Below, in pieces: positions 10,483-55,925 of a stretch of 64,000 nucleotides of DNA. Position 1 is the stretch's first letter, and each line of letters opens with the position of its first letter. Source of the DNA: Pseudomonadales bacterium (GTDB lineage Bacteria > Pseudomonadota > Gammaproteobacteria > Pseudomonadales > Ketobacteraceae); assembly GCA_002701845.1 (NCBI GenBank), contig NZXG01000061.1, positions 186,001-250,000 on the forward strand, read 5' to 3'. The position numbers and the translations under genes were made by a program. The notes beneath the pieces were generated by a model, which ran no database searches, was not told the origin of the DNA, and was given only the letters and a program-made list of their open reading frames with translations.

Positions 10483-10486
10483 CTCT

Positions 10487-11152: not shown

Positions 11153-11185
11153 GAAGTGCCTGGACAAGTCACAGGGGAGATAATA

Positions 11186-14478: not shown

Positions 14479-14507
14479 TTGTGTTTCAATGTCGATGAGA
14501 CTATACT
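14479..14507 (+). promoter_or_regulatory. candidate sigma70 promoter for sdhCDAB
   Basis: TTGTGT (-35, 14479-14484), a 17-base spacer, then TATACT (-10, 14502-14507). The spacing is ideal and the -10 differs from consensus at one position. Transcription would begin near 14514, leaving about 120 bases of leader before sdhC. Confidence 0.55.
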
Positions 14508-14634
14508 CCGGCACCGAATGGGGGTAGGGGAACATCGGTTGGAATTGAATAACTGCTTGTTTTCACTTGCCTAACAATTCTCGGATCTTCCTTCAACGCT
14601 CCGTCTTGGAGCCTTAGTCACAGTGGTTAAAAGC

Positions 14635-15371: not shown

Positions 15372-15374
15372 AGT

Positions 15375-17147
15375 ATGGCCAACATGAGAACCTTAACCTT
15401 TGATGCAGTGATCGTTGGTGGCGGCGGCGCCGGCATGCGGGCGGCCCTGCAGCTGGCCCAGTCCGGGCAGAACACGGCATTGATCTCGAAGGTGTTTCCC
15501 ACCCGCTCGCACACGGTGTCCGCCCAGGGCGGCATCACCTGCGCCATTGCCAGTGCCGATCCCAACGACGACTGGCGCTGGCACATGTACGATACCGTAA
15601 AGGGTTCTGATTACATCGGCGATCAGGATGCCATCGAATACATGTGCAGCGTGGGCCCCCAGGCGGTGTTTGAGCTGGAACATATGGGCCTCCCGTTTTC
15701 CCGCACCGAAGCCGGCCGGATCTACCAGCGTCCGTTCGGCGGTCAGTCCAAGAATTTCGGCGAGGGCGGCCAGGCTGCCCGCACCTGTGCCGCTGCGGAC
15801 CGCACCGGGCACGCGCTGCTGCACACGTTGTACCAGCAGAACGTGCGTTGTAACACCAATTTCTATAACGAATGGTATGCCGTGGATCTGGTGACCAATC
15901 AGGACAATGCGGTAACCGGGGTGATCGCCATTTCCATGGAGACCGGCGAGAGCGTTTACTTCAAAGCCAAGGCTACGGTGTTTGCCACCGGGGGCTCCGG
16001 CCGAATCTATGCCTCCACCACCAACGCCCTGATCAACACCGGCGACGGTGTGGGCATGGCGCTGCGGGCCGGATTCCCGGTGCAGGACATTGAAATGTGG
16101 CAGTTTCACCCTACCGGGATCGCCGGTGCCGGGGTGCTGGTCACCGAAGGCTGCCGGGGCGAGGGCGGTTACCTGGTCAATAAAGACGGCGAGCGTTTCA
16201 TGGAACGTTATGCGCCCAATGCCAAAGACCTGGCGGGACGGGACGTGGTGGCGCGGTCCATGATGCAGGAAATCCTCGATGGCCGGGGTTGCGGACCCGA
16301 AGGCGACCACGTGTTCCTGAAGCTGGATCATCTGGGGGAAGAGGTCTTGCATAAGCGACTGCCCGGCATTTGTGAACTGGCCATTACCTTTGCCGGTACC
16401 GATCCGGTGAAGGAACCGATCCCCGTGGTGCCCACCTGCCATTACATGATGGGAGGCATCCCCACCAATGTGCACGGTCAGGCGCTGACCCAGGGTGCTG
16501 ACGGCAACGACAAGGTCATTGACGGTCTCTACGCCGTGGGCGAGGTGGCCTGCGTGTCGGTACACGGCGCCAACCGTCTGGGTGGAAACTCTCTGCTGGA
16601 CCTGGTGGTGTTTGGTCGCGCCGCCGGTCTCTTTATCGAGCAGGCCTTAAAGGAAGGCATTGAGCAGCGGGAGTCTTCGGAATCGGATCTCGAACGCTCC
16701 TATAATCGTCTCAACCGCCTGGAGAACAGCAAGGACGGCGAGGACGTATCCAAGCTGCGTAAGGCCCTGCAAACCAGCATGCAGAATAATTTCGGCGTGT
16801 TCCGCAAGGGTGATCTGATGCAGGCCGGTGTTAAAGAACTGGAAGAGCTGCGGCAGCGTATTGCCAACACCCATCTTGAAGACAAAAGCGCCGCTTTCAA
16901 TACCGCTCGTATCGAAGCACTGGAACTGGACAATCTGCTGGAAGTGGCCGAGGCCACGGCGATTGCCGCGGAAGGTCGGCAGGAGAGCAGGGGAGCCCAC
17001 AGCCGCTATGATTTCCCGGACCGGGATGATGAAAACTGGCTGGCACACTCTATCTACGATCCCACCACCAAAAAGCTGGGCAAACGCCAGGTGAACTTCT
17101 CACCCAAACAGGTGGATACCTTCCAGCCCAAGGTCCGAACTTACTGA
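15375..17147 (+). CDS. sdhA: succinate dehydrogenase flavoprotein subunit
   Basis: A 590-residue catalytic subunit that oxidises succinate to fumarate. The FAD-binding [11 protein letters not shown] is at the N-terminus, the covalent FAD-His motif [11 protein letters not shown] near residue 42, the substrate region [11 protein letters not shown], and the [17 protein letters not shown] motif near 396. The C-terminus ends in KPKVRTY, as usual. All motifs are intact. It is second-to-last in the sdhCDAB operon. Confidence 0.98.
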
Positions 17148-17158
17148 GGTGATAGCCC

Positions 17159-17866
17159 ATGTTGCAGGTTAGTATTTATCGCTACAATCCGGATACCGAT
17201 ACCGAGCCGTACATGAAAGAGTATCAGATCGATACCGGCGGCAAAGACCTGATGGTATTGGACGTGTTGAGCCTGGCGAAGGAGCAGGATTCCACCATTG
17301 CTTACCGCCGCTCCTGCCGCGAAGGTGTGTGCGGGTCCGATGGCATGAATATCAATGGCAAGAATGGTCTGGCCTGCATCACACCGGTATCGGAAGCCAC
17401 CGGTGGCAAAGGCAAGCTGGTTTTGCGTCCCTTACCCGGCCTGCCGGTGGTGCGGGATCTGGTGGTGGATATGACCATGTTCTACAACCAGTACGAAAAG
17501 ATTAAGCCGTACCTGGTTAACAATACGCCAGTCCCGCCCATCGAGCGGCTCCAGGATCCGGAGGATCGGGACAAGCTGGATGGCCTGTACGAGTGTATTC
17601 TGTGCGCCTGCTGTTCTTCCTCTTGCCCGTCGTTCTGGTGGAACCCGGAAAAATTTATCGGGCCGGCTGGATTGTTACAGGCCTATCGGTTCATTGCCGA
17701 TACTCGTGATACCATGACCGAGCAGCGGCTTTCCGATCTGGATGACCCGTTCAGCCTGTTCCGGTGTCGCGGCATTATGAATTGTGTCAACGTTTGTCCC
17801 AAGGGGTTAAACCCCACCAAGGCGATCGGCCACATTCGTAACCAGCTGTTGCAGCAAGGCACTTAA
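17159..17866 (+). CDS. sdhB: succinate dehydrogenase iron-sulfur subunit
   Basis: A 235-residue protein with the plant-ferredoxin-type 2Fe-2S site (SCREGVCGSD, then GLACIT) and the C-terminal 4Fe-4S and 3Fe-4S sites (CILCACCSSSCPSFWW and CRGIMNCVNVCPKGLNP). It passes electrons from SdhA to the quinone site. It is 11 bp after sdhA and is the last sdh gene; no terminator is seen after it, so read-through into sucA is possible as in other gammaproteobacteria. Confidence 0.97.
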   Translation: MLQVSIYRYNPDTDTEPYMKEYQIDTGGKDLMVLDVLSLAKEQDSTIAYRRSCREGVCGSDGMNINGKNGLACITPVSEATGGKGKLVLRPLPGLPVVRDLVVDMTMFYNQYEKIKPYLVNNTPVPPIERLQDPEDRDKLDGLYECILCACCSSSCPSFWWNPEKFIGPAGLLQAYRFIADTRDTMTEQRLSDLDDPFSLFRCRGIMNCVNVCPKGLNPTKAIGHIRNQLLQQGT

Positions 17867-17870
17867 ACGG

Positions 17871-17898
17871 TTGTTTATTCGCCAAAAACCGATATAAT
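17871..17898 (+). promoter_or_regulatory. candidate sigma70 promoter for sucAB
   Basis: TTGTTT (17871-17876), a 16-base spacer and a perfect TATAAT (17893-17898). It begins 5 bp after the sdhB stop and would start transcription near 17905. An internal promoter between sdhB and sucA is known in enteric bacteria. Confidence 0.6.
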
Positions 17899-17917
17899 GC
17901 AGTGGGCTGAAAGGCCG

Positions 17918-17941
17918 GGCTACCCCGTTCGCGGGGTAGCC
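17918..17941 (+). other. strong stem-loop in the sucA leader
   Basis: GGCTACCCCG and CGGGGTAGCC form a perfect 10-bp stem closed by a TTCG loop. There is no T-run after it, so it is not a standard terminator. Its place about 13 bases past the predicted transcription start suggests an mRNA 5' stabiliser or a partial block to sdh read-through. Confidence 0.55.
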
Positions 17942-18202
17942 AGAGATAAAGACGCTACACTTGATGTTGGGAATGCAGTGGGGTCCGTTCATATGACGCC
18001 TGATCCCAGTTGCCAATTTCCCTGCTCCGCTCAAAAAGCGGCTGCGGGTTGATTCTGAAAATACAGGGCTAATCGGTAAAACCGAACTATCTGGAAGCGC
18101 ATTGGGCTCAACCGGCCGGTCGCACGCCTAACATGTTTACACGTGTCTGCTGCTGAATCGCGTCTTTGCAGATAGTGTCCTAGATCGACACGGTGATCTG
18201 CA

Positions 18203-21034
18203 ATGGAAGACAGTTTGATGTACCGACAGTGGAGCACGTCGCACCTCTCAGGTTCGAATGCCACCTATGTCGAAGAGCTCTACGAAGCCTATCTGAAAGA
18301 TCCCAATTCCGTCCCGGAAGAATGGCGCGACAATTTCGATAAGCTCCCCCGCGTCAACGGTATCGAAGGCGAAGTTCCCCACTCCACCATCCGCGAACAT
18401 TTCCTGTATCAAGCCAAGAACAAAAGCCGGGTGCAACCTCTGGCGGTCAGCAGCGTTTCCTCCGAGCATGAGAAGAAACAGGTCAAAGTGCTGCAACTGA
18501 TCACCGGCTATCGGGTCCGGGGTCATCAGAAAGCCATGCTTGATCCACTGAATATTATGGAGCGGGAGACCGTTCCTGATCTGGAACTCACCCACCACGG
18601 ATTGTCAGCCGCCGATCTGGAGACGATTTTTCAGACCGGGAATGTGTTCCTGGGGCGGGAAGAAGCCACCCTGCGGGAAATTGTCGAGGCGCTGGACCGA
18701 ACCTACTGCACCTCCATCGGTGTGGAATACATGCACATCGTGGACACCGCCGAGAAGCGCTGGATTCAACAGCGTATGGAGAGTGTCCGTTCCCACCCCA
18801 ACTACAGTGTGGACGTCAAAACCCATCTGCTGGAGCGGTTGATCGCTGCCGAAGGCCTGGAGCGCATGCTGGCCACCAAATACCCCGGCACCAAGCGCTT
18901 TGGTCTGGAGGGGGCGGAAAGTCTGATACCCTGCCTGGATGAAATCGTGCAGCGGGCCGGCAGCTATGGCGCCAAGGAGCTGGTAATCGGGATGGCCCAT
19001 CGGGGGCGACTCAATGTGCTGGTGAATATTCTGGGTAAAAACCCGGCGGATCTGTTCAGCGAATTTGAGGGCACCAAAAAGAACGAAGTGGGTTCCGGTG
19101 ATGTGAAATACCACCAGGGCTTCTCTTCCAACGTGATGACACCGGGCGGAGAATTACACCTGGCGCTGGCGTTCAATCCCTCGCATCTGGAAATTGTATC
19201 TCCGGTGGTGGAAGGCTCCGTCCGCGCCCGCCAGGATCGTCGTAAGGATAAAAAAGGCGATAAGGTGGTGCCGGTGTTGATCCACGGCGATGCCGCGTTC
19301 GCCGGTCAGGGCGTGGTCATGGAAACCTTTCAGATGTCCCAGACCCGTGGTTTCAAAACCGGGGGAACGGTACATATTATCGTCAACAATCAGGTGGGCT
19401 TTACCACCAGTTACCGCCATGACGCGCGCTCCACGGAATACTGCACCGATGTGGCGAAAATGGTGCAGGCACCGATTTTCCACGTCAATGGTGACGATCC
19501 CGAGGCCGTGCTTTTTGTCACCCAAATGGCCATCGATTTCCGTCAGCAATTCAAAAAGGATGTGGTTATCGATCTGATCTGTTATCGGGCCCGGGGCCAC
19601 AACGAGGCTGACGAACCCGCCATCACCCAGCCGATGATGTATTCCGTGATTCGTAAAAAGAAGAATCCCCGGGAGATCTACGCGGACCGATTGGTGGAAC
19701 AGGGTACCTTTGATCAGGACCGTATTAAGGCCATGACGGACGAGTACCGGTCTGCCCTTGATGATGGGCAGCATGTGGTCAAATCCCTGGTGAAACAGCC
19801 CAACACCGAACTGTTCGTGGACTGGAGTCCTTATCTGGGCCATGACTACGAAGCGTATTACGACACCAGTGTGGATGCCAAACTGATTCACGATTTGGCG
19901 CAGAAGTTGGACCAGCTGCCAGAAAGTTTTGTGGTGCAGCGACAGGTCACCAAGATTCGCGAGGATCGGCAGAAGATGGCAGCGGGTGCGCTTTCCATAG
20001 ACTGGGGTTTTGGCGAAACCATGGCCTATGCAACCCTGCTGCATGAGGGCTATCCGGTGCGGATCACCGGGCAGGACGTGGGCCGGGGCACCTTTTCTCA
20101 TCGCCACGCGGTGATTCACAACCAGAAAGCGCCCGGTACCCATGTGCCGTTGAAAACCATCGGCGAGAAAGACGTCCGCTTTGATATCTATGATTCCCTG
20201 TTATCGGAAGAGGCGGTGGTAGCTTTCGAATATGGCTATGCCACCACCGCACCCAAGGGCCTGGTGGTGTGGGAAGCCCAGTTCGGTGACTTTGCCAATG
20301 GCGCCCAGGTGGTGATCGATCAGTTTATCTCCTCCGGTGAACACAAGTGGATGCGGTTGTGTGGTCTCACCATGTTGCTGCCCCATGGTTACGAAGGCCA
20401 GGGTCCCGAGCACTCTTCGGCTCGCCTGGAGCGCTTCCTGCAACTGTGCGCGGAGCACAATATTCAGGTATGTGTACCCACCACCCCGGCTCAGGTTTTT
20501 CATATGCTGCGCCGGCAGGCCATTCGCCCCCTGCGCAAACCCCTGATCGTGATGTCACCCAAGAGCCTGCTGCGGCATAAACTGGCCAAGAGCAGTCTGG
20601 ATGATTTGGCCAATGGCCACTTCAAGGTGGTGCTGGACGATGCCTGGGAACACGATCCCAAGCAGATCAAACGGGTGGTGTTGTGTAGCGGAAAGGTGTA
20701 CTACGACTTGTTCGAACACCGGGCTCATAAAGAGATCCAGGACACCTTGGTGGTGCGCATTGAGCAACTGTACCCGTTCCCGGAACAGGAGCTGTACGAC
20801 ATGCTGGCGCCCTACAAAAACGTGAAGTCCATCGTCTGGTGCCAGGAAGAACCCATGAATCAGGGCGCCTGGTATTGCAGCCAGCATCACATGCGTCACG
20901 TGGTTCACCGGCTTTACCCCAAACTCTTGCTTCAATATTCGGGTCGCGAGGCATCCGCGGCACCGGCAGCGGGTTACATGTCCCTGCACCTGGAAGAGCA
21001 GGCGAATCTGGTGGATCAGGCCTTCACCAGTTGA
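18203..21034 (+). CDS. sucA: 2-oxoglutarate dehydrogenase E1 component
   Basis: A 943-residue thiamine-diphosphate enzyme that decarboxylates 2-oxoglutarate and succinylates the lipoyl group of SucB. The N-terminal peripheral segment (LSGSNATYVEELYEAYLKDP) is standard; the catalytic core shows GMAHRGRLNVL, then the ThDP Mg region HGDAAFAGQGVV and NNQVGFTT, and RARGHNEADEP. The C-terminal half carries HRHAVIHNQ and GYATTAPKGLVVWEAQFGDF. ATG 18203 is chosen by family length; another in-frame ATG lies five codons later. It is followed 64 bp later by sucB. Confidence 0.97.
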   Translation: MEDSLMYRQWSTSHLSGSNATYVEELYEAYLKDPNSVPEEWRDNFDKLPRVNGIEGEVPHSTIREHFLYQAKNKSRVQPLAVSSVSSEHEKKQVKVLQLITGYRVRGHQKAMLDPLNIMERETVPDLELTHHGLSAADLETIFQTGNVFLGREEATLREIVEALDRTYCTSIGVEYMHIVDTAEKRWIQQRMESVRSHPNYSVDVKTHLLERLIAAEGLERMLATKYPGTKRFGLEGAESLIPCLDEIVQRAGSYGAKELVIGMAHRGRLNVLVNILGKNPADLFSEFEGTKKNEVGSGDVKYHQGFSSNVMTPGGELHLALAFNPSHLEIVSPVVEGSVRARQDRRKDKKGDKVVPVLIHGDAAFAGQGVVMETFQMSQTRGFKTGGTVHIIVNNQVGFTTSYRHDARSTEYCTDVAKMVQAPIFHVNGDDPEAVLFVTQMAIDFRQQFKKDVVIDLICYRARGHNEADEPAITQPMMYSVIRKKKNPREIYADRLVEQGTFDQDRIKAMTDEYRSALDDGQHVVKSLVKQPNTELFVDWSPYLGHDYEAYYDTSVDAKLIHDLAQKLDQLPESFVVQRQVTKIREDRQKMAAGALSIDWGFGETMAYATLLHEGYPVRITGQDVGRGTFSHRHAVIHNQKAPGTHVPLKTIGEKDVRFDIYDSLLSEEAVVAFEYGYATTAPKGLVVWEAQFGDFANGAQVVIDQFISSGEHKWMRLCGLTMLLPHGYEGQGPEHSSARLERFLQLCAEHNIQVCVPTTPAQVFHMLRRQAIRPLRKPLIVMSPKSLLRHKLAKSSLDDLANGHFKVVLDDAWEHDPKQIKRVVLCSGKVYYDLFEHRAHKEIQDTLVVRIEQLYPFPEQELYDMLAPYKNVKSIVWCQEEPMNQGAWYCSQHHMRHVVHRLYPKLLLQYSGREASAAPAAGYMSLHLEEQANLVDQAFTS

Positions 21035-21098
21035 ATCCTATTCATCATTAACAACGCCTAAATTTGCTTGAGACCACAGCGGCGATTAAGGAACACAA

Positions 21099-22364
21099 AT
21101 GACAACTGAGATTAAAGCCCCCCAATTTCCTGAAGCAGTAGCCGATGGCACCGTTGCCACCTGGCACAAGAAACCAGGCGAGTCTGTATCCCGGGACGAA
21201 TTGTTGGTGGATATCGAAACCGACAAGGTCGTGCTGGAAGTGGTGGCCCCTCACGACGGTGTCGTGGGTAAAGTGGTAAAGGAAGAAGGGGACACGGTGC
21301 TTAGCCAGGAGCTGGTTGGCTATCTGGAAGAGGGCGAGGGCAGTGCACCGGACCCGGAACCGGCCAAATCGGAAAGCAAGCCCGCCGCGGAAACCGCAAG
21401 CAAGCAGCCCGCCGCCAAAGCAGCTGAGCCTGAAGCCGCCAGTGGTGAGGAAAACTGGGGCCCCGCCGTGCGCAAGCTGATTTCCGAGAACAACCTGGAC
21501 CCGGCGCAGATCAGCGGCACCGGCAAAGGTGGGCGAATTACCAAAGAAGACGTGCTCAATTACATGAAGAGCGGAGCCGCCGCCAAGTCAACCGCAGACA
21601 AAGCCGCGTCCGCGTCATCCGCTGAGTCCGCAGCCGCTCCCTCACCAGCGCCGGAACCCGGTGCCCGGGAAGAGCGCCGGGTGCCCATGACCCGGTTGCG
21701 GGCCCGGGTTGCCGAGCGCCTGGTGGCGGCCCAGCAAAATGCCGCCATGCTCACTACGTTTAACGAAGTGAACATGAAGCCAGTCATGGAAATGCGCAAA
21801 AACTATAAAGATATGTTTGAAAAAGCCCATGGCCACCGGCTCGGTTTTATGTCCTTCTTTACCATTGCGGCTTCGGAGGCACTGAAACGTTATCCTGCCG
21901 TAAACGCATCCATTGATGGTAATGATATTGTCTATCACGGTTACTACGATATCGGAGTGGCGGTATCCACGGATCGTGGCCTGGTGGTGCCCATCCTGCG
22001 CGACGTCGATAAAATGGGCTTCGCTGAAATCGAAGGCAAGATCGTCGATTACGGTAAAAAAGCGCAGTCTGGCAAGCTGTCACTGGAGGAAATGACCGGT
22101 GGAACGTTCACTATTTCCAATGGGGGGGTGTTTGGTTCCCTGTGGTCCACCCCCATTCTGAACCCACCACAGACGGCCATTTTGGGTATGCACAAGATTC
22201 AGGAGCGCCCCATGGCAGTCAATGGCCAGGTGGAAATACTGCCCATGATGTATCTGGCGCTGTCTTACGACCATCGGTTGATTGATGGCAAGGAGGCGGT
22301 ACAGTTCCTGGTCACCATCAAGGAGCTGATAGAGGATCCGGCGCGGATGTTGCTGGATCTGTAA
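21099..22364 (+). CDS. sucB: dihydrolipoyllysine-residue succinyltransferase (E2)
   Basis: A 421-residue E2 subunit. Domain order: lipoyl domain (residues 1-80, lipoyl Lys in [12 protein letters not shown]), an Ala/Pro/Glu-rich linker, the E3/E1 binding domain ([20 protein letters not shown], about 123-160), a second flexible linker, and the acyltransferase core with the catalytic [13 protein letters not shown] motif near 390. It forms the core of the 2-oxoglutarate dehydrogenase complex. Confidence 0.97.
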
Positions 22365-22409
22365 GACCTGGTTCGAGTCACCGTCTGTGCCGGCAGTGGC
22401 TTGGTGTGA

Positions 22410-23879
<1,470 letters not shown>

Positions 23880-23896
23880 GTTTGCCGGGTTTTTCA

Positions 23897-23930
23897 ATCG
23901 GGCCGGGGATTATCTCAGCCCGATTTTTTT
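23897..23930 (+). terminator. rho-independent terminator after lpd
   Basis: ATCGGGC and GCCCGAT form a 7-bp stem around a 14-base loop, followed by a run of T (23925-23930). It lies 18 bp after the lpd stop and may partly separate sucAB-lpd from sucCD transcription. Confidence 0.7.
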
Positions 23931-24068
23931 CACTGGACTACGACTGTTCAGACAGCAGGTGAAGTCCCGCCTGCAGCGCACTAAGCGCAAACCGGTGCGA
24001 GGGAAATCAATCGCGTCAACCATGTTTAACGTGGACATTCCACACAATACGAGATCAATGGTGAGCCA

Positions 24069-25229
24069 ATGAACTTACATGAGTATCAAGCCAAGCAATT
24101 GTTCGCTCAGTATGGCCTGCCTGTTTCCAAGGGGATTGCTGCCAGCACCCCTCACGAAGCAGCCGAGGCCGCTGATGTGATCGGAGGTGATCGCTGGGTT
24201 GTTAAAGCGCAGGTGCACGCTGGGGGGCGTGGCAAAGCCGGGGGCGTGAAACTGGTGAACTCGAAGGAAGAGATTATCGAGTTTGCCAAGGTCAAGCTGG
24301 GCACCAATCTGGTGACCTACCAGACCGATGCCAAAGGTCAACCCGTCAACAAAATTCTGGTGGAAACCTGCACCGATATTGATAAAGAACTTTACCTGGG
24401 TGCGGTGGTGGACCGCGGTACCCGACGGGTGGTATTTATGGCGTCCACCGAAGGCGGTGTGGAAATCGAAAAGGTGGCAGAGGAAACGCCGGAAAAAATC
24501 CTCAAAGCTGAAATTGATCCTCTTATCGGTGCGCAGCCGTTCCAGGCCCGTAATCTGGGCTATAAGCTTGGTCTCACCAATGATCAGGTGAAGCAATTCA
24601 CCAAGATTTTCATGGGCCTTGCCAAATTGTTTGAAGAGAAAGACATCTCGCTGATCGAGGTGAACCCGCTGGTGATCACTTCCGAGGGCAACCTGCACTG
24701 TCTGGACGCTAAACTGGTGGTGGACGGCAATGCAGTATTGCGGCACCCCGATCTGGCGGATATGTATGATCCCACTCAGGAAGACGAGCGCGAGCGACGG
24801 GCGGCAGAGTGGGATCTGAACTATGTGGCACTGGAAGGTAACATTGGTTGTATGGTAAACGGGGCCGGACTGGCCATGGCCACCATGGACCTGATCAAGC
24901 TCAAGGGCGGTCAGCCCGCCAACTTCCTGGACGTTGGTGGTGGTGCCACCAAAGAGCGGGTAACCGAGGCGTTCAAGATCATTCTCTCCGATGCCAGTGT
25001 CGAAGCCGTTTTGGTGAATATTTTCGGTGGCATTGTCCGCTGTGACCTGATTGCCGAGGGGGTTATCGGTGCAGTGCAGGAAGTGGGTGTAAAAGTACCT
25101 GTGGTGGTACGCCTGGAAGGTAATAATGCCGATGTGGGTGCCAAGCTCCTGTCAGAAAGTGGAATGAACATCATCGCGGCCAGTGGATTCAATGATGCTG
25201 CGGAAAAAGTCGTCGCAGCGGTGAAGTGA
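24069..25229 (+). CDS. sucC: succinate-CoA ligase (ADP-forming) beta subunit
   Basis: A 386-residue ATP-grasp subunit that makes ATP (or GTP) from succinyl-CoA. The N-terminus [18 protein letters not shown] is the family signature. [17 protein letters not shown] (nucleotide-binding), the Mg site EVNPLV and the phosphate-helix region [28 protein letters not shown] are intact. The gene overlaps nothing, lies 189 bp after lpd and 10 bp before sucD. Confidence 0.97.
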
Positions 25230-48438: not shown

Positions 48439-49464
48439 TTACGTGATCTGCGCACCCTTGACATGTTCCACCACCGCCTGCCGCAATCGCAATTCTTTCT
48501 CCTCGTAACTGAGTTGTGGCTGTTGCATCAGTTCCGGTGTGTCCATTGGCGCTATCAGGTGCAGGCCGAATTCCCCATAGCGCCGCTGAATGGTTTTCTT
48601 CAGATAAAACCGCTCAGCGTGCTGCCACCGCTGCGGGGGTTGTAACGACAGGATATGCTGCCCCAGAATGTCGATACCTTTGTGGCGGGTGGCGCTGGTG
48701 AGAAAAATATTGTCCCGGGCCGCCTGCTGGAAGTCATCCTCGGCCCGTAAGGCCACCAGCCGGGCCTGTTTCAGGGAGCTCCGCAACATGTGATAGCTGC
48801 TGCGGGCCAGCTTCTCCTCGTCGCATTTGTTCACGATAAAGGCATCCGGAATTTCCATGATACCGCACTTCATAAACTGGATCTGGTCGCCCCCCAGGGG
48901 CTGCATTACCAGAAAGGTGTAATCGGTCATGTTCTGGATGTCGATTTCGTTCTGACCAATGCCTACGGTTTCAATAAAAATATAATCGAACAGATGCCGC
49001 AGAATCCGGCAGGCGTGAAAGGTGGCTTCGGTCACGCCCCCCAGTTCCAGATTGGAGGCCTGGGAGCGAAAAAAAAGACGCGGTTCCCGCCGACCGTAGT
49101 GCATGCGGGTGCGGTCCCCCAGAATGGAACCCCCGGAGGCCTGACTGGAGGGGTCTATGGCCAGTACCGCGATCTTGAGTTGATCATCCTGTGCCAACAG
49201 GTAACGGCACAATTCAGCCAGCAACGATGACTTGCCGGCCCCCGGGGTGCCGGTGAAGCCGAGAATGGCAGCCGGTTTTGCATAGTCCCCCGGGTGCCTG
49301 GCGATATGATGCTGAATTTGGCTGCGCAGGGCGGCGTTCTCCGGCAGCCGGTTTTCAAACAAGCTCACCAGCTTGCCCAGGGGCCATTTTTTCAGGGCCC
49401 GGGCCTGGGCCAGGCGTTCCACCCATTGCGGGTCCAGCGGGGCATTGGTATCGGATTCCGGCAT
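48439..49464 (-). CDS. meaB: MeaB/ArgK-type GTPase, mutase chaperone
   Basis: A 341-residue G3E-family GTPase. The P-loop is FTGTPGAGKSSLLAELCR near residue 72, then IAVLAIDPSSQASGGSILGDRTRM, the switch region FIETVGIGQNEIDI near 170, and the base-specificity motif NKCDEEK near 218. Proteins of this family protect and reload B12-dependent mutases; the adjacent mutase gene (overlap 16 bp upstream of the ATG given here as start) makes that its likely client. An alternative start at 49515 would overlap the mutase by 35 bases. It is the last gene of the cluster on this strand. Confidence 0.88.
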   Translation of the reverse strand: MPESDTNAPLDPQWVERLAQARALKKWPLGKLVSLFENRLPENAALRSQIQHHIARHPGDYAKPAAILGFTGTPGAGKSSLLAELCRYLLAQDDQLKIAVLAIDPSSQASGGSILGDRTRMHYGRREPRLFFRSQASNLELGGVTEATFHACRILRHLFDYIFIETVGIGQNEIDIQNMTDYTFLVMQPLGGDQIQFMKCGIMEIPDAFIVNKCDEEKLARSSYHMLRSSLKQARLVALRAEDDFQQAARDNIFLTSATRHKGIDILGQHILSLQPPQRWQHAERFYLKKTIQRRYGEFGLHLIAPMDTPELMQQPQLSYEEKELRLRQAVVEHVKGAQIT

Positions 49465-49480
49465 CCCTGAATGGCGCTCG

Positions 49481-51505
49481 TCAGGCCGCGTGCTGTTTTT
49501 GTTCCAGCACCACATCCATGATGCTGTTCATGATATCCATCAGATCGTAATCCTTGGGGGTAAACACCTGCCGTACCCCCAACGCCTGCAACCCCGGTAT
49601 ATCCGCCTGGGGAATGATACCGCCGAGTACCACCGGAATGGCGTCCCGGGCGCCTTCTTTGTCCAGTTCCTGCATCAGTTGTTCGATAATCTCGTTATGG
49701 GACCCGGACAGCAGGGAAATACCGATCACGTCCACGTCTTCTTCGATGGCGGACTGGACAATATCCACGGCGCTGAGTCGAATGCCAAAGTAAATCACAT
49801 CGAATCCGGCATGGCGCGCCGCCACCGAGATCATTTCGGCACCGTTGGAGTGGCCATCCAGCCCCGGCTTGCCCACCACCATGCGGGGGCGGTGCCCGAA
49901 CTGTTCAATGAATTTTTCCACTTTTGCCCGCACGGTGTTGAGCTTGTCGTTGGCCAGGGAAAGCGTCTGGCCTTCCACGCCGGTGGGGGGACGGTATTCC
50001 CCGAAGACTTCCCGCAGGGTGCCGGCCCACTCCCCGGTGCTGATTCTGGCGTGGGCGCAGGCAATGGAGGCCTCCATCAGGTTGCGTCCGGCCTTGGCGT
50101 CTTCCCGCAACCGTTGCAGACAGGCCTGGGCCTTGCTCTCATCCCGTTGCCGGCGGGTTTCTTCCAGCGCCTCCAGGGTCTGCTGGGCGGAGGCGGAATC
50201 CACCTTAAAGACACCACCGTCGGCGGCGGACAGCAGGGGAGAGGCAATGCCATCGGCCCAGCGGTTTTTCCCGACCACGACCTGCTCGCCGGTATTGATC
50301 CTGGCCATGCGTTCGGCCTGGGAAATTACCAGTTGGGATTTCATATAACCGTTTTTGATGGCTTCAATACCACCACCGGCGTCGAGAATTTTCTCAATTT
50401 CGGCTTTGGCCTGGCTTTTCAGATCATCCACTTTGGACTGTACCACCGGGGAACCGTCGAACAGATCCGGGTATTCCAGCAGATCGGTTTCATAGGCCAG
50501 AATCTGTTGCAGCCGCAGGGACCATTGTTGATCCCAGGGGCGGGGCAGGGACAGAGCCTCGTTCCAGGCCGGCAACTGTAGCGCCCGGCAGCGGGCATTG
50601 CGGGACAGGGTGACCCCCAGGGCCTCGATCAGAATACGCCAGGCATTGTTCTCCGGCTGCTCCTCAGTGAGGCCCAGGGAATTCACCTGCACACCATAAC
50701 GGAAACGGCGGAATTTGGGATTCTTGACGCCATAGCGTTGGCGACAGATTTCATCCCAGAGCTCCGTGAACGCCCGCATCTTGCACATTTCTTCGATAAA
50801 ACGCATGCCGGCATTAACGAAGAAGGAAACCCGACCCACGCAGCGTTCGAATTCCTCTTCATCGAAGCAATTCCGCTGCTTGATGGCATCGAGCACGGTG
50901 ATGGCGGTGACCAGCGAGTAAGCCAGCTCCTGCACCGGAGTGGCGCCGGCCTCCTGCAAATGATAGGAGCACACGTTGGACGGGTTCCATTTGGGAATGT
51001 GCTTGAGACAGTACTCGTACATATCCACGATCAGACCGATGGACTGATCCGGCGGAAACACGTAAGTGCCGCGGGCCAGAAACTCCTTGATCAAATCGTT
51101 CTGAGTGGTGCCCTGCAGTTTTTCCAGTTCAATACCCCGTTCCTCCGCCAACGCCACGTACAATGACAACAGCCACATGGAAGTGCCGTTGATGGTCATG
51201 GAGGTGTTGATCTCCGCCATGTCGATCTGTTCGAACAGAATGGCGAAATCATCCAGGGTATTGATGGGCACACCCACCTTACCGATTTCCGGGCGGGCGA
51301 TGTCCTCGTCGGAGCTGTAGCCGCACTGGGTGGGTAGGTCGAAGGCGATACTGAGCCCGGTCTGACCCCGGGACAGGTTGCTGCGGTAAAGCTCGTTGGA
51401 CGCGCGCACGTTAGTGTGGCCGGCGTACGTGCGAAAAATCCAGGGCCGGTCCCTGCTGGGGTTGCCGTCCTGGTCATGGATGATGTGGGCCGGTTTCTCA
51501 GTCAT
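49481..51505 (-). CDS. ecm: ethylmalonyl-CoA mutase (MeaA-type, B12-dependent)
   Basis: A 674-residue adenosylcobalamin mutase. The TIM-barrel part shows FRTYAGHTNVRASNELY, IAFDLPTQCGYSSDE, GTTQNDLIKEFLARGTY and KWNPSNVCSYHLQEAGATP. The C-terminal B12 domain (about 520-665) has the lower-ligand motif GLDGHSNGAE (Asp-x-His-x2-Gly). The Tyr in CGYSSD and the Arg in LARGTY correspond to carboxylate-binding residues of methylmalonyl-CoA mutase, so a dicarboxylic CoA substrate is expected; the NVCSYHLQEAGATPVQELA stretch is what I associate with MeaA/Ecm rather than methylmalonyl-CoA mutase. It converts ethylmalonyl-CoA to methylsuccinyl-CoA. Single-chain form. Confidence 0.87.
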   Translation of the reverse strand: MTEKPAHIIHDQDGNPSRDRPWIFRTYAGHTNVRASNELYRSNLSRGQTGLSIAFDLPTQCGYSSDEDIARPEIGKVGVPINTLDDFAILFEQIDMAEINTSMTINGTSMWLLSLYVALAEERGIELEKLQGTTQNDLIKEFLARGTYVFPPDQSIGLIVDMYEYCLKHIPKWNPSNVCSYHLQEAGATPVQELAYSLVTAITVLDAIKQRNCFDEEEFERCVGRVSFFVNAGMRFIEEMCKMRAFTELWDEICRQRYGVKNPKFRRFRYGVQVNSLGLTEEQPENNAWRILIEALGVTLSRNARCRALQLPAWNEALSLPRPWDQQWSLRLQQILAYETDLLEYPDLFDGSPVVQSKVDDLKSQAKAEIEKILDAGGGIEAIKNGYMKSQLVISQAERMARINTGEQVVVGKNRWADGIASPLLSAADGGVFKVDSASAQQTLEALEETRRQRDESKAQACLQRLREDAKAGRNLMEASIACAHARISTGEWAGTLREVFGEYRPPTGVEGQTLSLANDKLNTVRAKVEKFIEQFGHRPRMVVGKPGLDGHSNGAEMISVAARHAGFDVIYFGIRLSAVDIVQSAIEEDVDVIGISLLSGSHNEIIEQLMQELDKEGARDAIPVVLGGIIPQADIPGLQALGVRQVFTPKDYDLMDIMNSIMDVVLEQKQHAA

Positions 51506-51530: not shown

Positions 51531-52709
51531 TCAGCCGCGCTTTTTCACCAGCAGTCGGCGTTCGATTTCAAAGATCTTGTGGCTGATCTTTTCCTTGCCC
51601 AGGCCTTTCTTGCTGTTTTCCTTGATAAACAGGTCACTGCCGTACTGCTCCAGGGCAGCGGCGGCGGTGATGTTTTTGACGCCGATGAACTGCACACTGA
51701 CCACCGCGGCGTGATCCTGCAGTTCGTCCGGCGCAGCTTCCACCCGCAAAATCCGGCTCAGGGCATACACCGTGTCGCCGGCAACGGCGGGCTGGGTGTG
51801 ATAACCCTCGGTGAAACCCAGCTCCCATAGCGCATTTTCGGACAGGTCCCGGCTTGCCAGGCCTTCCAGCCAGGCGAACACCAGCCCGCCATAAACAATG
51901 GGGTTGCCACTCATGGGGCCACTGAGGCTCTGGCTGAACACCTTGTCGTAATGCAGTGGATGGGTGTTGCCCACCTGATAGGTAAGGGCGAAGTGCTCTT
52001 CACTGATGGTGCGGCCATTATTGTGGACGATGATATCGCCAGCCTGAAAATGCTCGGCGTAAGTATTCCAGCCGGTAACGGATTGGGTCACATGACGAAT
52101 CGCGGTGGGCAGGGCGTCCGGCAACTCCACACTGGCGTCTTCCTGCCAGGGGAACGCTGGCGTTGCGCCTTCGGCCACGGGTACCGTGGGCAGTCGATCA
52201 CCCCGATAGGCTACCATCAGCTTACGTTCATATTGCAGCACCACCTGTTGATGTTGGTTCAGCCCCAGGGTGCGAATGGTGACAATACCGGGTTTATCTT
52301 CCCCCCGTTCCTTGCGATCCACCACCATGGTCATGGCCCGAACGGTATCACCGGGGAATACCGGCGCCAGAAACTGAGCATTGTAATAACCCAGGTTGGC
52401 GATGACTTTTTCGGAATCGTTCTGTACCCCTAAAGACAGCACCACATTGAACACCATCTGTGGCGACGCCGGAATCTGCTCGAAGCCGTGGGACTTGGCG
52501 TATTCCAGATCCAGATACAGAGGGTTGCACTGCATGTACGTGCGGGAGAAAAAATCAATGGCGGACTGGGAAAACGTATAGCCCCGGGGATGCACAAACA
52601 ACTGCCCGGGAACATACTCTTCCAGATAGCGGCCGTATTGCGGGTACCGCACCTGATCCAGACTGATGTCCTGATCCGGTGCCAGCTCCTGTTGTGGTGC
52701 GAATTTCAT
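51531..52709 (-). CDS. mesaconyl-CoA hydratase (MaoC-like, double hotdog)
   Basis: A 392-residue protein of two MaoC-like halves. The N-half shows GQLFVHPRGYTFSQSAIDFFSR and VIANLGYYNAQFLAPVFPGDTV; the C-half AEHFQAGDIIVHNNGRTISEEH and HPLHYDKVFSQS. That layout is the one described for mesaconyl-C1-CoA hydratase of the ethylmalonyl-CoA pathway, though this protein is about 40 residues longer than the alphaproteobacterial enzyme, mostly at the N- and C-termini. AAGGAG lies 6 bases before the ATG. Between the dehydrogenase and the mutase genes, each within 30 bp, so the assignment by context is strong. Confidence 0.83.
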   Translation of the reverse strand: MKFAPQQELAPDQDISLDQVRYPQYGRYLEEYVPGQLFVHPRGYTFSQSAIDFFSRTYMQCNPLYLDLEYAKSHGFEQIPASPQMVFNVVLSLGVQNDSEKVIANLGYYNAQFLAPVFPGDTVRAMTMVVDRKERGEDKPGIVTIRTLGLNQHQQVVLQYERKLMVAYRGDRLPTVPVAEGATPAFPWQEDASVELPDALPTAIRHVTQSVTGWNTYAEHFQAGDIIVHNNGRTISEEHFALTYQVGNTHPLHYDKVFSQSLSGPMSGNPIVYGGLVFAWLEGLASRDLSENALWELGFTEGYHTQPAVAGDTVYALSRILRVEAAPDELQDHAAVVSVQFIGVKNITAAAALEQYGSDLFIKENSKKGLGKEKISHKIFEIERRLLVKKRG

Positions 52710-52726: not shown

Positions 52727-54394
52727 TCAGGCGGCTTTTTCCACGAGGGCTTTGGCAATCACTTTCAGGGCCAGGGTTTCCTCCGCGCCTTCGAAAATGG
52801 AGAGCACCCGGGCATCAATGTAGTAGCGGCTCACGGCGGACTCTTCCGCATAGCCCATGCCGCCGTGGATCTGCATGGCCTCGCGGCACAGCCATTCGCT
52901 GGATTTGCAGGAGTAGAGTTTCACCAGGCTGGCTTCCATCTGGCCCTTACCTTCATCCATCAGTCGCGCCACGTGGTAGGTGAACTGGCGGGATACCTGC
53001 AGCAACATGGCCATGCGTGCAATTTTCACCAGGGTCAGTTGGTAATCGGCGATGGGCTTGCCAAACACCACCCGCTCCCGGGCATAGTTCAGGGCCCGTT
53101 CGAAGGCCGCCTGCATCAGGCCGGTGGCCCGGGCCGCGGTCTGAATGCGGCCGCCGGCGAATCCCGCCATGGTGTAATAAAAGCCCTTGCCAATGCCTTC
53201 CGCGCCGCCGAGCACATGACTGTCGGGCACGAAACAATTGTCAAAAAACACCGTAAAACTGTGCATACCCCGGTAGCCGATGGTGGGAATGGCCTTGCCG
53301 GTGAGCGTGCCCCCATTCTCCTGTTCGTGGGCGAAAGCGTGACCCGGGAAGGAGGGTTTCTCCACCAGGAACATGGTCAGACCCTTATGACCGGAGCTCA
53401 TGTCCGGGTTGGTGCGGGCCAGGGTCAGCAATACACCGGCCCGACCGGCAAACGTACACCAGGTTTTTTCTCCGTCCAGCACCCAGCCGCCTTCCACCTG
53501 GCTGGCTTTGAGCTTCATACCGGCCACATCGGAGCCGTAGTTGGGTTCGGTCACCGCCACCGCATTCAGTGGTTCGGCCTGCGCCAGTTTTGGCAGCCAG
53601 TATTGCTTCTGTTCTTCAGTGCCACCTTTTAACAGGGCCCGGGTCATGATTTCCGGACGGGTGATCAGGCTGCCGGCGGCCCCCAGTGAGCCCCGGGACA
53701 ATTCCTCGGTCACCACGATCATCCCCAGGTTGTCTTCGCTGTCGTCGGGCTGAATACCGCCATACTGCATGGGAATGGAAAGGCCGAAACACCCCAGCTC
53801 CACCAGGGGTTTGAGAATGTCGTCGGGAATATCCAGATCCTTGGTATGAATGGGTTCCGCCAGGGGCATCACCACCTCGTTGGCAAAATCCCGGAACTGA
53901 TCCCGCATCATTTCCTTTTCGTCGTCCAGCAGGTATTCGCCCACGAAGCCATCGTCGGCCAATACCTGCTTGCCAACCGCCTCCAGGTTTTCGGTGGACA
54001 GGTGCTGGTTGATAAAAGCATCCACTTCCGCCGAGTCCACCGTGGCCTGCAACTGTTGCCGGTCAAAACCGAAGTCCGCACGGCGCGCGCTGAAGCGGGC
54101 CCGCACTCCCTGCAGCGCCTCGGCGGCATATTGCAATGCCAGACGCTCTTCGATACGACCGCTTTCCCCTTTGAGCTTTTCCACCTGCTCACTGTATTGC
54201 AGCATAACGCGGGCTGCGGTGATTTCCGCTTCACAGTACGCCACTTCATAACAGGCCAGCTGTTTTTCATCCAGCTTACTGCCGGAAACCCGGCCGTCCT
54301 GGCTGCTGAACGCCTTTAGATGGCTCAGCGCGCTGTCCAGCACGGTCTGGGCCTGGTTGATCAGAGTGTGGGCTTGTTGGATTGCAGATGACAT
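52727..54394 (-). CDS. mcd: (2S)-methylsuccinyl-CoA dehydrogenase
   Basis: A 555-residue FAD acyl-CoA dehydrogenase. It has an N-terminal helical extension of about 150 residues (AHTLINQAQTVLDSALSHL, with a long coiled-coil-like region) before the standard core, which begins at DEKEMMRDQFRDFANEVV. Core motifs include AVTEPNYGSDVAGMKL, GRIQTAARATGLMQAAFERAL and REAMQIHGGMGYAEES. The extension and length are typical of methylsuccinyl-CoA dehydrogenase (about 550) rather than of ordinary short-chain enzymes (about 380). GGAG 6 bases before ATG 54394 sets the start; ATGs at 54409 and 54406 are alternatives. Confidence 0.86.
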   Translation of the reverse strand: MSSAIQQAHTLINQAQTVLDSALSHLKAFSSQDGRVSGSKLDEKQLACYEVAYCEAEITAARVMLQYSEQVEKLKGESGRIEERLALQYAAEALQGVRARFSARRADFGFDRQQLQATVDSAEVDAFINQHLSTENLEAVGKQVLADDGFVGEYLLDDEKEMMRDQFRDFANEVVMPLAEPIHTKDLDIPDDILKPLVELGCFGLSIPMQYGGIQPDDSEDNLGMIVVTEELSRGSLGAAGSLITRPEIMTRALLKGGTEEQKQYWLPKLAQAEPLNAVAVTEPNYGSDVAGMKLKASQVEGGWVLDGEKTWCTFAGRAGVLLTLARTNPDMSSGHKGLTMFLVEKPSFPGHAFAHEQENGGTLTGKAIPTIGYRGMHSFTVFFDNCFVPDSHVLGGAEGIGKGFYYTMAGFAGGRIQTAARATGLMQAAFERALNYARERVVFGKPIADYQLTLVKIARMAMLLQVSRQFTYHVARLMDEGKGQMEASLVKLYSCKSSEWLCREAMQIHGGMGYAEESAVSRYYIDARVLSIFEGAEETLALKVIAKALVEKAA

Positions 54395-54494
54395 CGGCGT
54401 CTCCATCATTGGCGAAAACCGGGGAGCCAGACTCGGCGGGCCCCGGCAGGGTTGACTACAAATCTAACCGGCGTGGGCTGAGCCGGGACCGGGC

Positions 54495-55925
54495 TCAGCC
54501 ATGGGCCCGGTTGGCAACAATCTGCACGAAGGAGCGGGAGCGCAGCTCGTCCATGGTGATACCGGTATCCATGGCTTCCTGCTCGGTGATGGCGCCGCAG
54601 GCAATTCCCCGCAGGAAGAAATTCAACAGGCCCTGGCCGGTGGCCGCATCGTCAAAGGTATTGCCCACCAGCGTGGCCTGGGCGGCCTTGTTGATAAAGG
54701 CTTTCAGACGCGCCGAAGCATCCGGCAGCCCCTCCAGGAAGAAGGCGTAAACCGCAGCGTAGCGAATGGGAAGCTGGCCCGGATTCAGATCCCACCCCTG
54801 ATAGTAGGCGTGGCGCAGGGAGTGCTGAATGTTGTCGAAATGCAGCTTCCAGGCACTGTGCACCACAGCCACATTTTCCTGCACTTGCTGTGGGGTCAGG
54901 TCACCCTTGTGGGGGCCGATGGGCATTACCGTAGTGGCACCGTCACAAATAGTGAGGCCGGTACCGGCGCAGGCCACCTGCAGCACATGGCGGGCAAAAT
55001 CCGATGCCGGGTGGGTGTGGGTCTGGTGGGCGGCGGTGATGTTGCAGGTGGCGGTGTAATCGTAGGTGCCAAAAATGGCCGAGCGGCAACGACCGCGGCC
55101 CGCTGCCGCCAGCAGGCGCACCTGATTGGAACCGTCAGCGTCAATAATGGCCTGCGTGGTTTCAATCATGATTTCCAGTTTCAGGGAACCCGCCTCGTAG
55201 CCGCACTTGGGCTCAATAATATCCAGCAGATCCGCCAGCGCCGCCACCTGTTCCGGGTGGGTGACCTTGGGCAGGGTGATCACAAAATTGGGAGGCAGTT
55301 TGCCGCCGGTGACTTCCGCCAGCCGGGTCAGAAACAGATCCAGAGTGCGCACCGAGCGCTGTCGGCATTCTTCGGTGAAGGTCTTGATACGAATTCCGAT
55401 GAAGGGGGGCAGGCCGCCTTCCTCTATGCCCTTGGCCACTTCTTCGGCGGCCCTAACGGCATCACGGTCTTCCTCTTCGTCCGGGCGGTTACCGTAACCG
55501 TCCTCGAAATCGATACGGTTATCCTCGATGGGTTCCTCGTGCAGTTTTTTTACCACCCGGTCGTACACAGTGTACGCAAGCCAGGCGGCAGGGTTGGCCT
55601 CTTTCATGTGATCCGGGTCAGCCGCCACAGCTTCCCCCAACCGGTTGGCTTCGGCGGCAGTCTGGGGCAAGGATTCATAACCGTTCATCTTCAGGATCCG
55701 CGCCAGGGCACAAAAATCCGGAGCATAGGTGGTCAATGCGCGCTGTGCCAGTCCGCCCAGCTTTTGTGCCGATCCGGCTTTGAACAGATTGGCACCGCCG
55801 TACACCGTATGCACCGGCTGGCGCTCGGAGGAGTCTCCGGGGTAAAGTGAGCTGTGCTTTTGGTTGGACTCGGCCAGTCGGGCCAGGATGGGTTGGGTCT
55901 CGGAATCGGTCAGCGTCAGTTTCAT
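54495..55925 (-). CDS. large HpcH/HpaI-type aldolase, candidate beta-methylmalyl-CoA lyase
   Basis: A 476-residue protein with a CitE/HpcH-like TIM-barrel plan. Visible segments are FEDGYGNRPDEEEDRDA near residue 145, FIGIRIKTF near 175, FVITLPKVTHPEQV near 218, KLEIMIETTQAIID (metal-ligand Glu) near 252 and SAIFGTYDYTATCNI (metal-ligand Asp) near 286. It is far longer than malyl-CoA lyases (about 320). It seems to belong to the large aldolase group that databases have labelled phosphoenolpyruvate kinase; that label has no support here. By position it could cleave beta-methylmalyl-CoA into glyoxylate and propionyl-CoA. It is the promoter-proximal gene of the cluster. Confidence 0.72.
   Translation of the reverse strand: MKLTLTDSETQPILARLAESNQKHSSLYPGDSSERQPVHTVYGGANLFKAGSAQKLGGLAQRALTTYAPDFCALARILKMNGYESLPQTAAEANRLGEAVAADPDHMKEANPAAWLAYTVYDRVVKKLHEEPIEDNRIDFEDGYGNRPDEEEDRDAVRAAEEVAKGIEEGGLPPFIGIRIKTFTEECRQRSVRTLDLFLTRLAEVTGGKLPPNFVITLPKVTHPEQVAALADLLDIIEPKCGYEAGSLKLEIMIETTQAIIDADGSNQVRLLAAAGRGRCRSAIFGTYDYTATCNITAAHQTHTHPASDFARHVLQVACAGTGLTICDGATTVMPIGPHKGDLTPQQVQENVAVVHSAWKLHFDNIQHSLRHAYYQGWDLNPGQLPIRYAAVYAFFLEGLPDASARLKAFINKAAQATLVGNTFDDAATGQGLLNFFLRGIACGAITEQEAMDTGITMDELRSRSFVQIVANRAHG

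Follow-up and report, generated by a model that had tools for sequence, protein, structure and literature searches.

The closest described systems to the protein studied here are the malyl-coenzyme A (malyl-CoA) lyases of Rhodobacter sphaeroides type (Mcl1; 4l9y, 4l9z and 5ugr), the malyl-CoA/beta-methylmalyl-CoA/citramalyl-CoA lyases of Chloroflexus type (4l7z, 4l80, 6kin and 6kkh) and the malate synthases A and G. For the R. sphaeroides lyase, excerpts of PMC3832036 give Glu141 and Asp168 as Mg2+ ligands, Asp299 as the lid acid and Arg76 as the proposed acceptor of the hydroxyl-group proton, and include Asp42/Glu44/Asp45 among the residues with a role. We studied a gene of the Pfam family DUF6986 (PF22484) in a 64,000-nucleotide stretch (hereafter the window) of a Ketobacteraceae (Pseudomonadales) genome, contig NZXG01000061.1. 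The gene, located at 54495..55925 on the minus strand, is the first of an operon of ethylmalonyl-CoA pathway genes and encodes a proposed beta-methylmalyl-CoA lyase of 476 residues. We consider it likely that this protein acts as a Mg2+-dependent C-C lyase, has the fold shared by HpcH/HpaI, CitE and malate synthase proteins, and would end an ethylmalonyl-CoA-type route. An earlier reading of the DNA letters alone (the sequence-only reading) had assigned to it the cleavage that forms glyoxylate and propionyl-CoA. This putative function is supported by the predicted structure, the residues and the operon, and by the fact that in one sample the family and the standard enzyme exclude each other (see below).

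Compared with the R. sphaeroides type, the DUF6986 protein has a similar predicted fold, the same putative Mg2+ ligands, arginine and lid aspartate positions, and the same place in the pathway after mesaconyl-CoA hydratase (Mch), but it is about 140 residues longer, carries an extra helical N-terminal region and belongs to its own Pfam family. The Chloroflexus type resembles it in fold (Z 22.1-23.2) and in a DDAT-like C-terminal motif; in 12 loci of Accumulibacter/Propionivibrio, however, that lyase is found in a cluster with Mch and 2-methylfumaryl-CoA isomerase (mesaconyl-CoA C1-C4 transferase, Mct), in the order Mct-lyase-Mch, whereas DUF6986 is in the mcd-ecm operon. Malate synthases A and G share the fold (3cv2, Z 23.8), a partial match of the N-terminal helices and an EDAAT-like motif, but DUF6986 falls under the Pfam cut-off for them and a separate malate synthase is encoded in the same genome. 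Finally, DUF6986 proteins encoded near purine-degradation genes (purine type) are 51-62% identical to the window protein and have the same catalytic residues, differing in their neighbours (amidohydrolase/allantoinase, allantoicase, UraD and HIUase) and in fixed or nearly fixed residues.

The operon and the family of its first gene

The DUF6986 open reading frame (ORF) is on the minus strand, a plus-strand reading of 54495-55925 having been rejected. Its product matched PF22484 at 6e-179 (595.5 bits, cut-off 27), with residues 17-468 covering positions 1-407 of the 408 in the profile. Four genes follow on the same strand: mcd, (2S)-methylsuccinyl-CoA dehydrogenase (52727..54409, 560 residues), which matched the solved enzyme 8ciw with 597.1 bits over residues 11-559; mch, mesaconyl-CoA hydratase (51531..52709, 392 residues), recognized by PF19315 (MC_hydratase, 85.6 bits, residues 17-342) and exceeding the cut-off of no NCBIfam equivalog; ecm, a coenzyme-B12-dependent acyl-CoA mutase (49481..51505, 674 residues) with PF01642 and PF02310 in a single chain; and meaB, the mutase-associated GTPase (48439..49515, 358 residues; PF03308, 192.4 bits). 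The gaps are 85 bases between the DUF6986 gene and mcd, 17 between mcd and mch and 25 between mch and ecm, and ecm overlaps meaB by 35 bases. The mutase scored 504.6 bits against the 876-bit cut-off of the NCBIfam methylmalonyl-CoA mutase equivalog and its closest solved relatives are methylmalonyl-CoA mutases; by its mutase domains and its context it is taken as ethylmalonyl-CoA mutase (Ecm), which places the gene set of the ethylmalonyl-CoA pathway (Mcd, Mch and Ecm) together in this operon. The gene order recurs in distant lineages (see below) and is therefore not due to chance.

The sequence-only reading had described a 476-residue HpcH/HpaI-like protein at the start of the cluster, about 150 residues longer than Mcl-type lyases. 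Both points held: the HpcH_HpaI model was matched barely above its cut-off (25.7 against 25 bits), and the protein exceeds two canonical lyases of 332-347 residues (from loci L089 and L020) by 129-144 residues. It scored below the cut-offs of malate synthase (PF01274, 18.8 against 26.4 bits) and of the NCBIfam haloarchaeal malyl-CoA lyase (22.5 against 500 bits), and by sequence it does not belong to the MCLR/MCLC lyase clades (about 330-350 residues). By sequence membership it is thus a DUF6986 protein, outside the known malyl-CoA lyase clades; it most likely works like a malyl-CoA lyase. A search of the PDB with the single protein gave no lyase, the two matches (E 0.26-0.28) being judged due to chance. 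The family profile reached 5ugr at E 0.00034; its matches to helical proteins (bridging integrators, amphiphysin) were also judged due to chance. The TIM-barrel model of malate synthase was matched by 63 of 70 family members at E <= 0.01.

A kinase name mentioned for this group by the sequence-only reading was not encountered, the Pfam name being DUF6986. Nothing supported a kinase function; matches of 13 of the 70 members to adenylosuccinate synthetase (best 0.00013) were judged due to chance. We found no earlier functional assignment of DUF6986 in one open-access library of papers, where the name itself was absent; work under other names or published elsewhere is possible.

Elsewhere in the window, and named by the look of their translations only, a Flp/Tad pilus-like cluster was seen at 1-12000 and genes of citrate synthase, succinate dehydrogenase, 2-oxoglutarate dehydrogenase and succinyl-CoA synthetase at 12794-25226.

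Model structure and conserved residues

An AlphaFold2 model built from 70 aligned rows had a mean predicted local distance difference test score (pLDDT) of 86.9 and a predicted template modelling score (pTM) of 0.86, and agreed with a TIM barrel and a putative C-terminal lid as in the lyases. Superposition on malyl-CoA lyase had been proposed as a check by the sequence-only reading, and the predicted model agreed with it: the best structural match found by VIA-align was the R. sphaeroides lyase 4l9y (Z 24.2, root-mean-square deviation 2.4 over 274 residues, model residues 42-442). Foldseek alone placed the putative lyases 3qqw and 3r4i on top. Among the matches listed, the alignments with lyases and with the haloarchaeal malate synthase started at model residue 42, and those with malate synthases A and G at residue 1 or 5. 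The extra N-terminal region (residues 1-131, 55533..55925, minus strand) was predicted to form helices at 7-27, 52-67, 71-78 and 90-130, with residues 32-42 below a pLDDT of 50. Since the lyase alignments start at residue 42 and a D-x-E-D strand lies at 135-139, this region might combine an N-terminal helix with an insertion instead of being a simple extension.

For a profile-profile alignment (hhalign) we used 29 lyases, 14 of R. sphaeroides type and 15 of Chloroflexus type. The type labels follow solved structures, because the L089 lyase corresponds to 5ugr (418 bits) and the L020 protein to 6kin (685 bits) and 4l7z (674.5 bits). DUF6986 matched the lyase profile with a probability of 95.9% (E 2.9e-9) and a malate synthase profile of seven rows with 91.7%. 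The alignment paired D139/E141/D142, R179, K220, E255, D289 and D425 with lyase counterparts; these residues and D426 were unvarying across the 70 rows. On the minus strand, D139-F-E141-D142 (55500..55511) would take the place of Asp42/Glu44/Asp45 in the R. sphaeroides lyase, and R179 (55389..55391) that of Arg76. E255 in KLEIMIET (55161..55163) and D289 in FGTYDYT (55059..55061), already picked out as metal-ligand positions by the sequence-only reading, aligned with the Mg2+ ligands Glu141 and Asp168. The lid acid, equivalent to Asp299, would be in D425-D426 of FDDAATGQG (54648..54653): for this aspartate (Asp299/Asp318 in lyases) the alignment pairs D425 and the malate synthase motif points to D426.

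Distribution and phylogeny of the family

From a species-genome scan for DUF6986 we took the best 80 of 129 relatives as loci. In tblastn searches with the window proteins, DUF6986 was directly followed by Mcd (at least 58% identity) in 34 of the 80 (L004-L031, L033-L036, L041 and L063), which bears out the co-occurrence with mcd/ecm anticipated by the sequence-only reading; the further expectation, that the standard lyase gene would be absent from such genomes, stood only in part (see below). Mch came next in 32 of these 34, the exceptions being L022 and L034, and Ecm and MeaB lay downstream wherever the contig was long enough. L043, which has masked bases and a contig end, contained a partial Mcd and was not counted among the 34. 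In L034 (Propionivibrio aalborgensis) and L022 (SAR324-labelled), mch was not detected in the stretch from mcd to ecm; L034 has a hydratase in the adjoining 3-hydroxypropionate cluster. Four Chloroflexota loci (L032, L037, L039 and L042) had an acyl-CoA dehydrogenase of 43-47% identity immediately upstream of DUF6986, in the order ccr - acyl-CoA dehydrogenase - DUF6986 in all except L037 (a 6-kb contig); their Ccr exceeded the TIGR01751 cut-off in L032, L042 and, at the locus, in the genome of L039. In a sample of Gammaproteobacteria the family was present in one of 369 genomes (the window genome alone), and it was absent from 14 control genomes.

A maximum likelihood tree of 76 rows (the window and 75 of the 80 loci, five with masked bases omitted) grouped the operon-type proteins in one clade of 38 with support of 100/100. 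The tree is unrooted and so does not give the direction of the switch between operon and purine types. This clade included L052, a gammaproteobacterial gene with no mcd, mch or ecm within its 12-kb contig. When 32 operon-type rows (L052 included) were compared with 31 purine-type rows, two positions differed in 100% of the rows on both sides: 303 (H/M) and 332 (T/N). Others were nearly fixed: 381 N/H (100/97%), 422 N/D (100/90%), 423 T/V (97/100%), 442 A/N (97/100%) and 284 I/H (88/97%). The comparison did not include seven of the 70 rows: L070, which has an HIUase gene nearby, and L038, L047, L050, L068, L074 and L076, with no purine gene seen near them. A natural reading of these sequence differences is that the two DUF6986 types would have two substrate specificities.

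Canonical lyases and glyoxylate enzymes

The window genome (4.9 Mb, 99.98% complete) gave two matches in an HpcH/HpaI search at E <= 0.01, the DUF6986 protein itself and a CitE-like protein on another contig (C60). A standard mcl1 elsewhere in this genome, which the sequence-only reading had named, together with a lack of co-occurrence with ecm/mcd, as refuting its proposal, was not found by that search, the C60 protein being the one other match. The gene of the latter lies in a catabolic-looking cluster (C60:42000-59778, locus L084) whose neighbours, named by appearance, are a P450, a Rieske oxygenase, CaiB-type and other CoA-transferases, an acyl-CoA dehydrogenase and two enoyl-CoA hydratases.

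The mesaconyl-CoA hydratase model (PF19315, E <= 1e-15) was matched in 63 of 398 evenly drawn Pseudomonadota. We kept by eye the 38 genomes in which one match covered the model for the most part, namely that of the window and 37 others; 25 with partial matches were dropped, among them G079, G743 and G794, which had both halves as separate matches. With the lyase of L089 as query all 38 genomes matched, the 37 others with 184-582 bits and the window genome with 90.6 bits at 31%. The PF22484 model gave 595.4 bits in the window genome and nothing above 32.4 bits in the other 37. In this one sample the two enzymes were mutually exclusive: 37 of 38 genomes had a canonical lyase and no true DUF6986, and the window genome showed the reverse. 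Two adjoining lyase genes, 80-82% and 39-40% identical to that of L089, were observed in the Pseudomonadota genomes G454, G476, G457, G448, G484 and G582, and G009 was similar.

We then considered 32 operon genomes, namely the window genome and those of 31 of the 39 pathway-type loci (without L012, L018, L019, L021, L031, L033, L037 and L043): 13 gammaproteobacterial (G000-G008, G010, G012, G022 and G029), 14 Accumulibacter/Propionivibrio, two SAR324-labelled (G009 and G015) and three Chloroflexota (G024, G028 and G030). Accumulibacter/Propionivibrio are counted separately from the 13, "non-gammaproteobacterial" being used here as shorthand. Most of the 32 are metagenome assemblies, and absences are most secure in G000 and in strain HdN1 (G005), which is complete. 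An HpcH/HpaI protein was present at E <= 1e-10 in 22 genomes and not found at that threshold in ten (G001-G007, G010, G012 and G022, HdN1 included). Among the 13 gammaproteobacterial genomes, a canonical lyase was not found in 12: G000 has the C60 protein and G008 one protein without BLAST match to canonical lyases; the exception is G029, with a relative of the R. sphaeroides type at 44% identity. In the three Chloroflexota we found CitE-like proteins that share 33-36% identity with the R. sphaeroides type and 38-40% with the C60 protein.

Ccr exceeded its cut-off in 20 of the 32 genomes, G022 and all 19 non-gammaproteobacterial ones; the best TIGR01751 match of the window genome had 93.3 bits against a cut-off of 378.55. 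Isocitrate lyase (PF00463, E <= 1e-30) was found in 15, G022 and the 14 Accumulibacter/Propionivibrio, and not found at this threshold in the other 12 gammaproteobacterial genomes, that of the window included. Malate synthase was present in 28, among them all 13 gammaproteobacterial and all 14 Accumulibacter/Propionivibrio genomes, and was not found in G009, G015, G024 and G030. All the gammaproteobacterial genomes except G022, 12 in number, therefore keep malate synthase with neither isocitrate lyase nor Ccr found. Malate synthase without isocitrate lyase needs another source of glyoxylate, for which the DUF6986 operon is an obvious candidate.

Loci with purine-degradation genes

ORF clustering showed at least one purine-degradation gene in 34 of the 41 loci outside pathway clusters: allantoicase in 24, UraD in 22, HIUase in 28 and an amidohydrolase taken as allantoinase in 24. 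None of the four was seen in the other seven (L038, L047, L050, L052, L068, L074 and L076). A frequent order was amidohydrolase, allantoicase, UraD, HIUase and DUF6986. Pfam searches confirmed amidohydrolase, allantoicase, OHCU decarboxylase and HIUase in L083. In L073 they revealed urate oxidase and a protein of the polysaccharide deacetylase family, and in L064 a class V aminotransferase encoded immediately downstream of DUF6986. DUF6986 was matched by five of 72,556 plasmid records, all actinobacterial and 33-39% identical, three of them naming it "aldolase/citrate lyase family protein". It lies beside guanine deaminase and "allantoicase/(S)-ureidoglycine aminohydrolase" in a Tsukamurella plasmid and adjoins a nucleobase symporter in a Paenarthrobacter plasmid; a Nocardia plasmid has no annotation around it. 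In the Gordonia plasmid p174 (L163) a distant DUF6986 gene is flanked by a gene for a PaaI-family thioesterase on one side and by a urease operon on the other, and malate synthase G is encoded some 9 kb away.

We searched the genomes of 35 of these 41 loci (without L038, L045, L047, L050, L052 and L076). Allantoicase was present in 31 of the 35 and in two of the 32 operon genomes (G001 and G002), and malate synthase in 22 of the 35. With PF04115 at E <= 1e-4, for which the Escherichia coli control was positive, AllA gave weak matches to part of the model in two of the 35 (G057 and G058) and was not found in G000 and G005; among the 31 genomes with allantoicase it was not found in 30, M20-type ureidoglycolate amidohydrolases not having been searched for. 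DUF6986 itself does not match AllA, as PF04115 was not among the families of the 70 rows at E <= 0.01. DUF6986 often adjoins allantoicase. An enzyme able to bind a 2-hydroxy acid through Mg2+ and to release glyoxylate could convert ureidoglycolate to glyoxylate; the purine type might equally consume glyoxylate. Mg2+-assisted glyoxylate release would be the theme shared by both types.

Discussion

From the operon, the predicted fold, the catalytic residues, the malate synthase of the window genome and the canonical lyase, isocitrate lyase and Ccr not found in it, we infer a substrate, a direction, residue roles and an origin of ethylmalonyl-CoA as follows. Ethylmalonyl-CoA, perhaps made by carboxylation of butyryl-CoA by a biotin-dependent carboxylase, would be converted to methylsuccinyl-CoA by Ecm with MeaB, then to mesaconyl-CoA by Mcd and to beta-methylmalyl-CoA by Mch, and DUF6986 would cleave the latter into glyoxylate and propionyl-CoA. 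If the mechanism follows that of the R. sphaeroides lyase, E255 and D289 would bind the Mg2+ that chelates the glyoxylate half, R179 would accept the proton of the hydroxyl group, the C-C bond would break, and D425 or D426 in the C-terminal lid would protonate the propionyl-CoA enolate. The glyoxylate would then be turned into malate by the malate synthase that the window genome encodes elsewhere.

Several results weigh against this proposal. Identity to the lyase 4l9y was just 18% across the structural alignment, E. coli malate synthase A (3cv2, Z 23.8, 292 residues) was tied with it within one unit, and the C-terminal motif of DUF6986 also resembles malate synthase. Ccr was not found above its cut-off in 12 of the 13 gammaproteobacterial operon genomes, the window genome included, so that the usual pathway entry is absent there. 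Forty-one of the 80 loci lie outside pathway clusters, 34 of those with purine genes. In the Pseudomonadota sample, 11 of the 37 other genomes formally exceeded the 27-bit DUF6986 cut-off; weak matches (25.8-32.4 bits) were seen in 15 of the 37, each at the site of a lyase-type gene. Finally, a Chloroflexus-type lyase is present in 15 of the 32 operon genomes (the 14 Accumulibacter/Propionivibrio and G009) and probably also in G015, as a match beside its other lyase, and both G009 and G015 have an R. sphaeroides-type lyase as well. With 15 or 16 of 32 genomes so equipped, strict replacement is true of only part of these operon genomes, and the idea that DUF6986 always replaces Mcl1 was rejected, since Accumulibacter and SAR324-labelled genomes have canonical lyases.

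In 12 Accumulibacter/Propionivibrio loci (L017, L019, L020, L024, L025, L026, L028, L030, L034, L035, L036 and L043) the Chloroflexus-type lyase lies 2-6 kb from DUF6986, accompanied by a CoA-transferase and a second mesaconyl-CoA hydratase. In L020 the former is Mct (TIGR04253, 844.5 against 725 bits) and the latter a PF19315 protein with 28.5% identity to the operon hydratase. Accumulibacter is reported to encode the second half of the 3-hydroxypropionate bi-cycle (excerpts of PMC6593406), and excerpts of PMC9813914 also report Mct. The Mct-lyase-Mch cluster has genes of this second half and is separate from the mcd-ecm operon. Two neighbouring gene sets that both have a hydratase and a lyase of their own (one hydratase in L034) fit DUF6986 as the lyase of the ethylmalonyl-CoA pathway; the Chloroflexus-type lyase could also serve both pathways in Accumulibacter. 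Excerpts of PMC12604563 report up-regulation of the Accumulibacter ethylmalonyl-CoA genes when phosphate is low.

The resemblance to malate synthase allows DUF6986 to be seen as a glyoxylate consumer, joining acetyl-CoA and glyoxylate to malate while another enzyme cleaves beta-methylmalyl-CoA. FDDAATGQG resembles the EDAAT of malate synthase, structures of which align from model residue 1 with a Z (3cv2) close to that of the best lyase, most family members match the malate synthase barrel, and a glyoxylate consumer would suit both gene contexts because purine degradation also gives glyoxylate. We nevertheless think it unlikely: the 13 gammaproteobacterial and 14 Accumulibacter/Propionivibrio operon genomes already have malate synthase, the window protein is under the malate synthase cut-off, and ten of the 32 operon genomes have no HpcH/HpaI protein (E <= 1e-10) left for the cleavage. 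The C60 protein, as the only other HpcH/HpaI match of the window genome and with the solved lyases 5ugr (1.1e-32) and 4l9y (1.4e-29) among its relatives, could in turn be the methylmalyl-CoA lyase, leaving DUF6986 an accessory role. This is very improbable. Its nearest solved relatives are of CitE type (1z6k, 9.6e-34, and 6aq4, 2.7e-33, which we take to be Mycobacterium tuberculosis chains), whereas true lyases of the two types reach 418 and 685 bits against solved structures of their own type. The C60 protein shares 28-32% identity with canonical lyases, falls outside both of their clades in a small tree with long branches, and is under the cut-offs of all four NCBIfam models that it matched; its gene sits in a seemingly different catabolic cluster, and a counterpart is missing at E <= 1e-10 in those ten operon genomes.

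A further explanation is compatible with lyase activity and differs on its role: the gammaproteobacterial operon would be a low-flux salvage of ethylmalonyl-CoA made erroneously from butyryl-CoA, not a route of bulk assimilation. The missing Ccr favours salvage, and butyryl-CoA is expected to be abundant during growth on alkanes. Strain HdN1 lives on alkanes, as stated in excerpts of PMC3151549. Salvage nevertheless seems doubtful to us, as the same 12 genomes keep malate synthase without isocitrate lyase and so require a source of glyoxylate, and Ccr is present in the other 19 of the 32 operon genomes.

Taking the beta-methylmalyl-CoA lyase proposal together with the purine loci, we tentatively put forward, as possible rather than probable, a wider view in which DUF6986 proteins are glyoxylate-releasing lyases that fill two pathway holes. 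In purine degraders they would be the missing (S)-ureidoglycolate lyase, giving glyoxylate and urea; one switch in the tree, with few nearly fixed residue changes, would have produced a beta-methylmalyl-CoA lyase, which would have spread together with mcd-mch-ecm. This lyase would, in Ketobacter and the relatives of HdN1, end a route that supplies malate synthase with glyoxylate and needs no isocitrate lyase, Ccr or canonical malyl-CoA lyase.

Conclusions

What this analysis adds to the sequence-only reading is the lack of Ccr and isocitrate lyase, a second cluster in Accumulibacter, and the purine half of the family with its residue differences. It offers a testable function for a Pfam family of unknown function and names a putative second lyase in Accumulibacter. 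DUF6986 may also be a candidate for the step from ureidoglycolate to glyoxylate where purine degraders possess allantoicase and lack AllA; for Ketobacter, HdN1 and related bacteria, the operon suggests a route from acetyl-CoA to C4 compounds that would work without isocitrate lyase.

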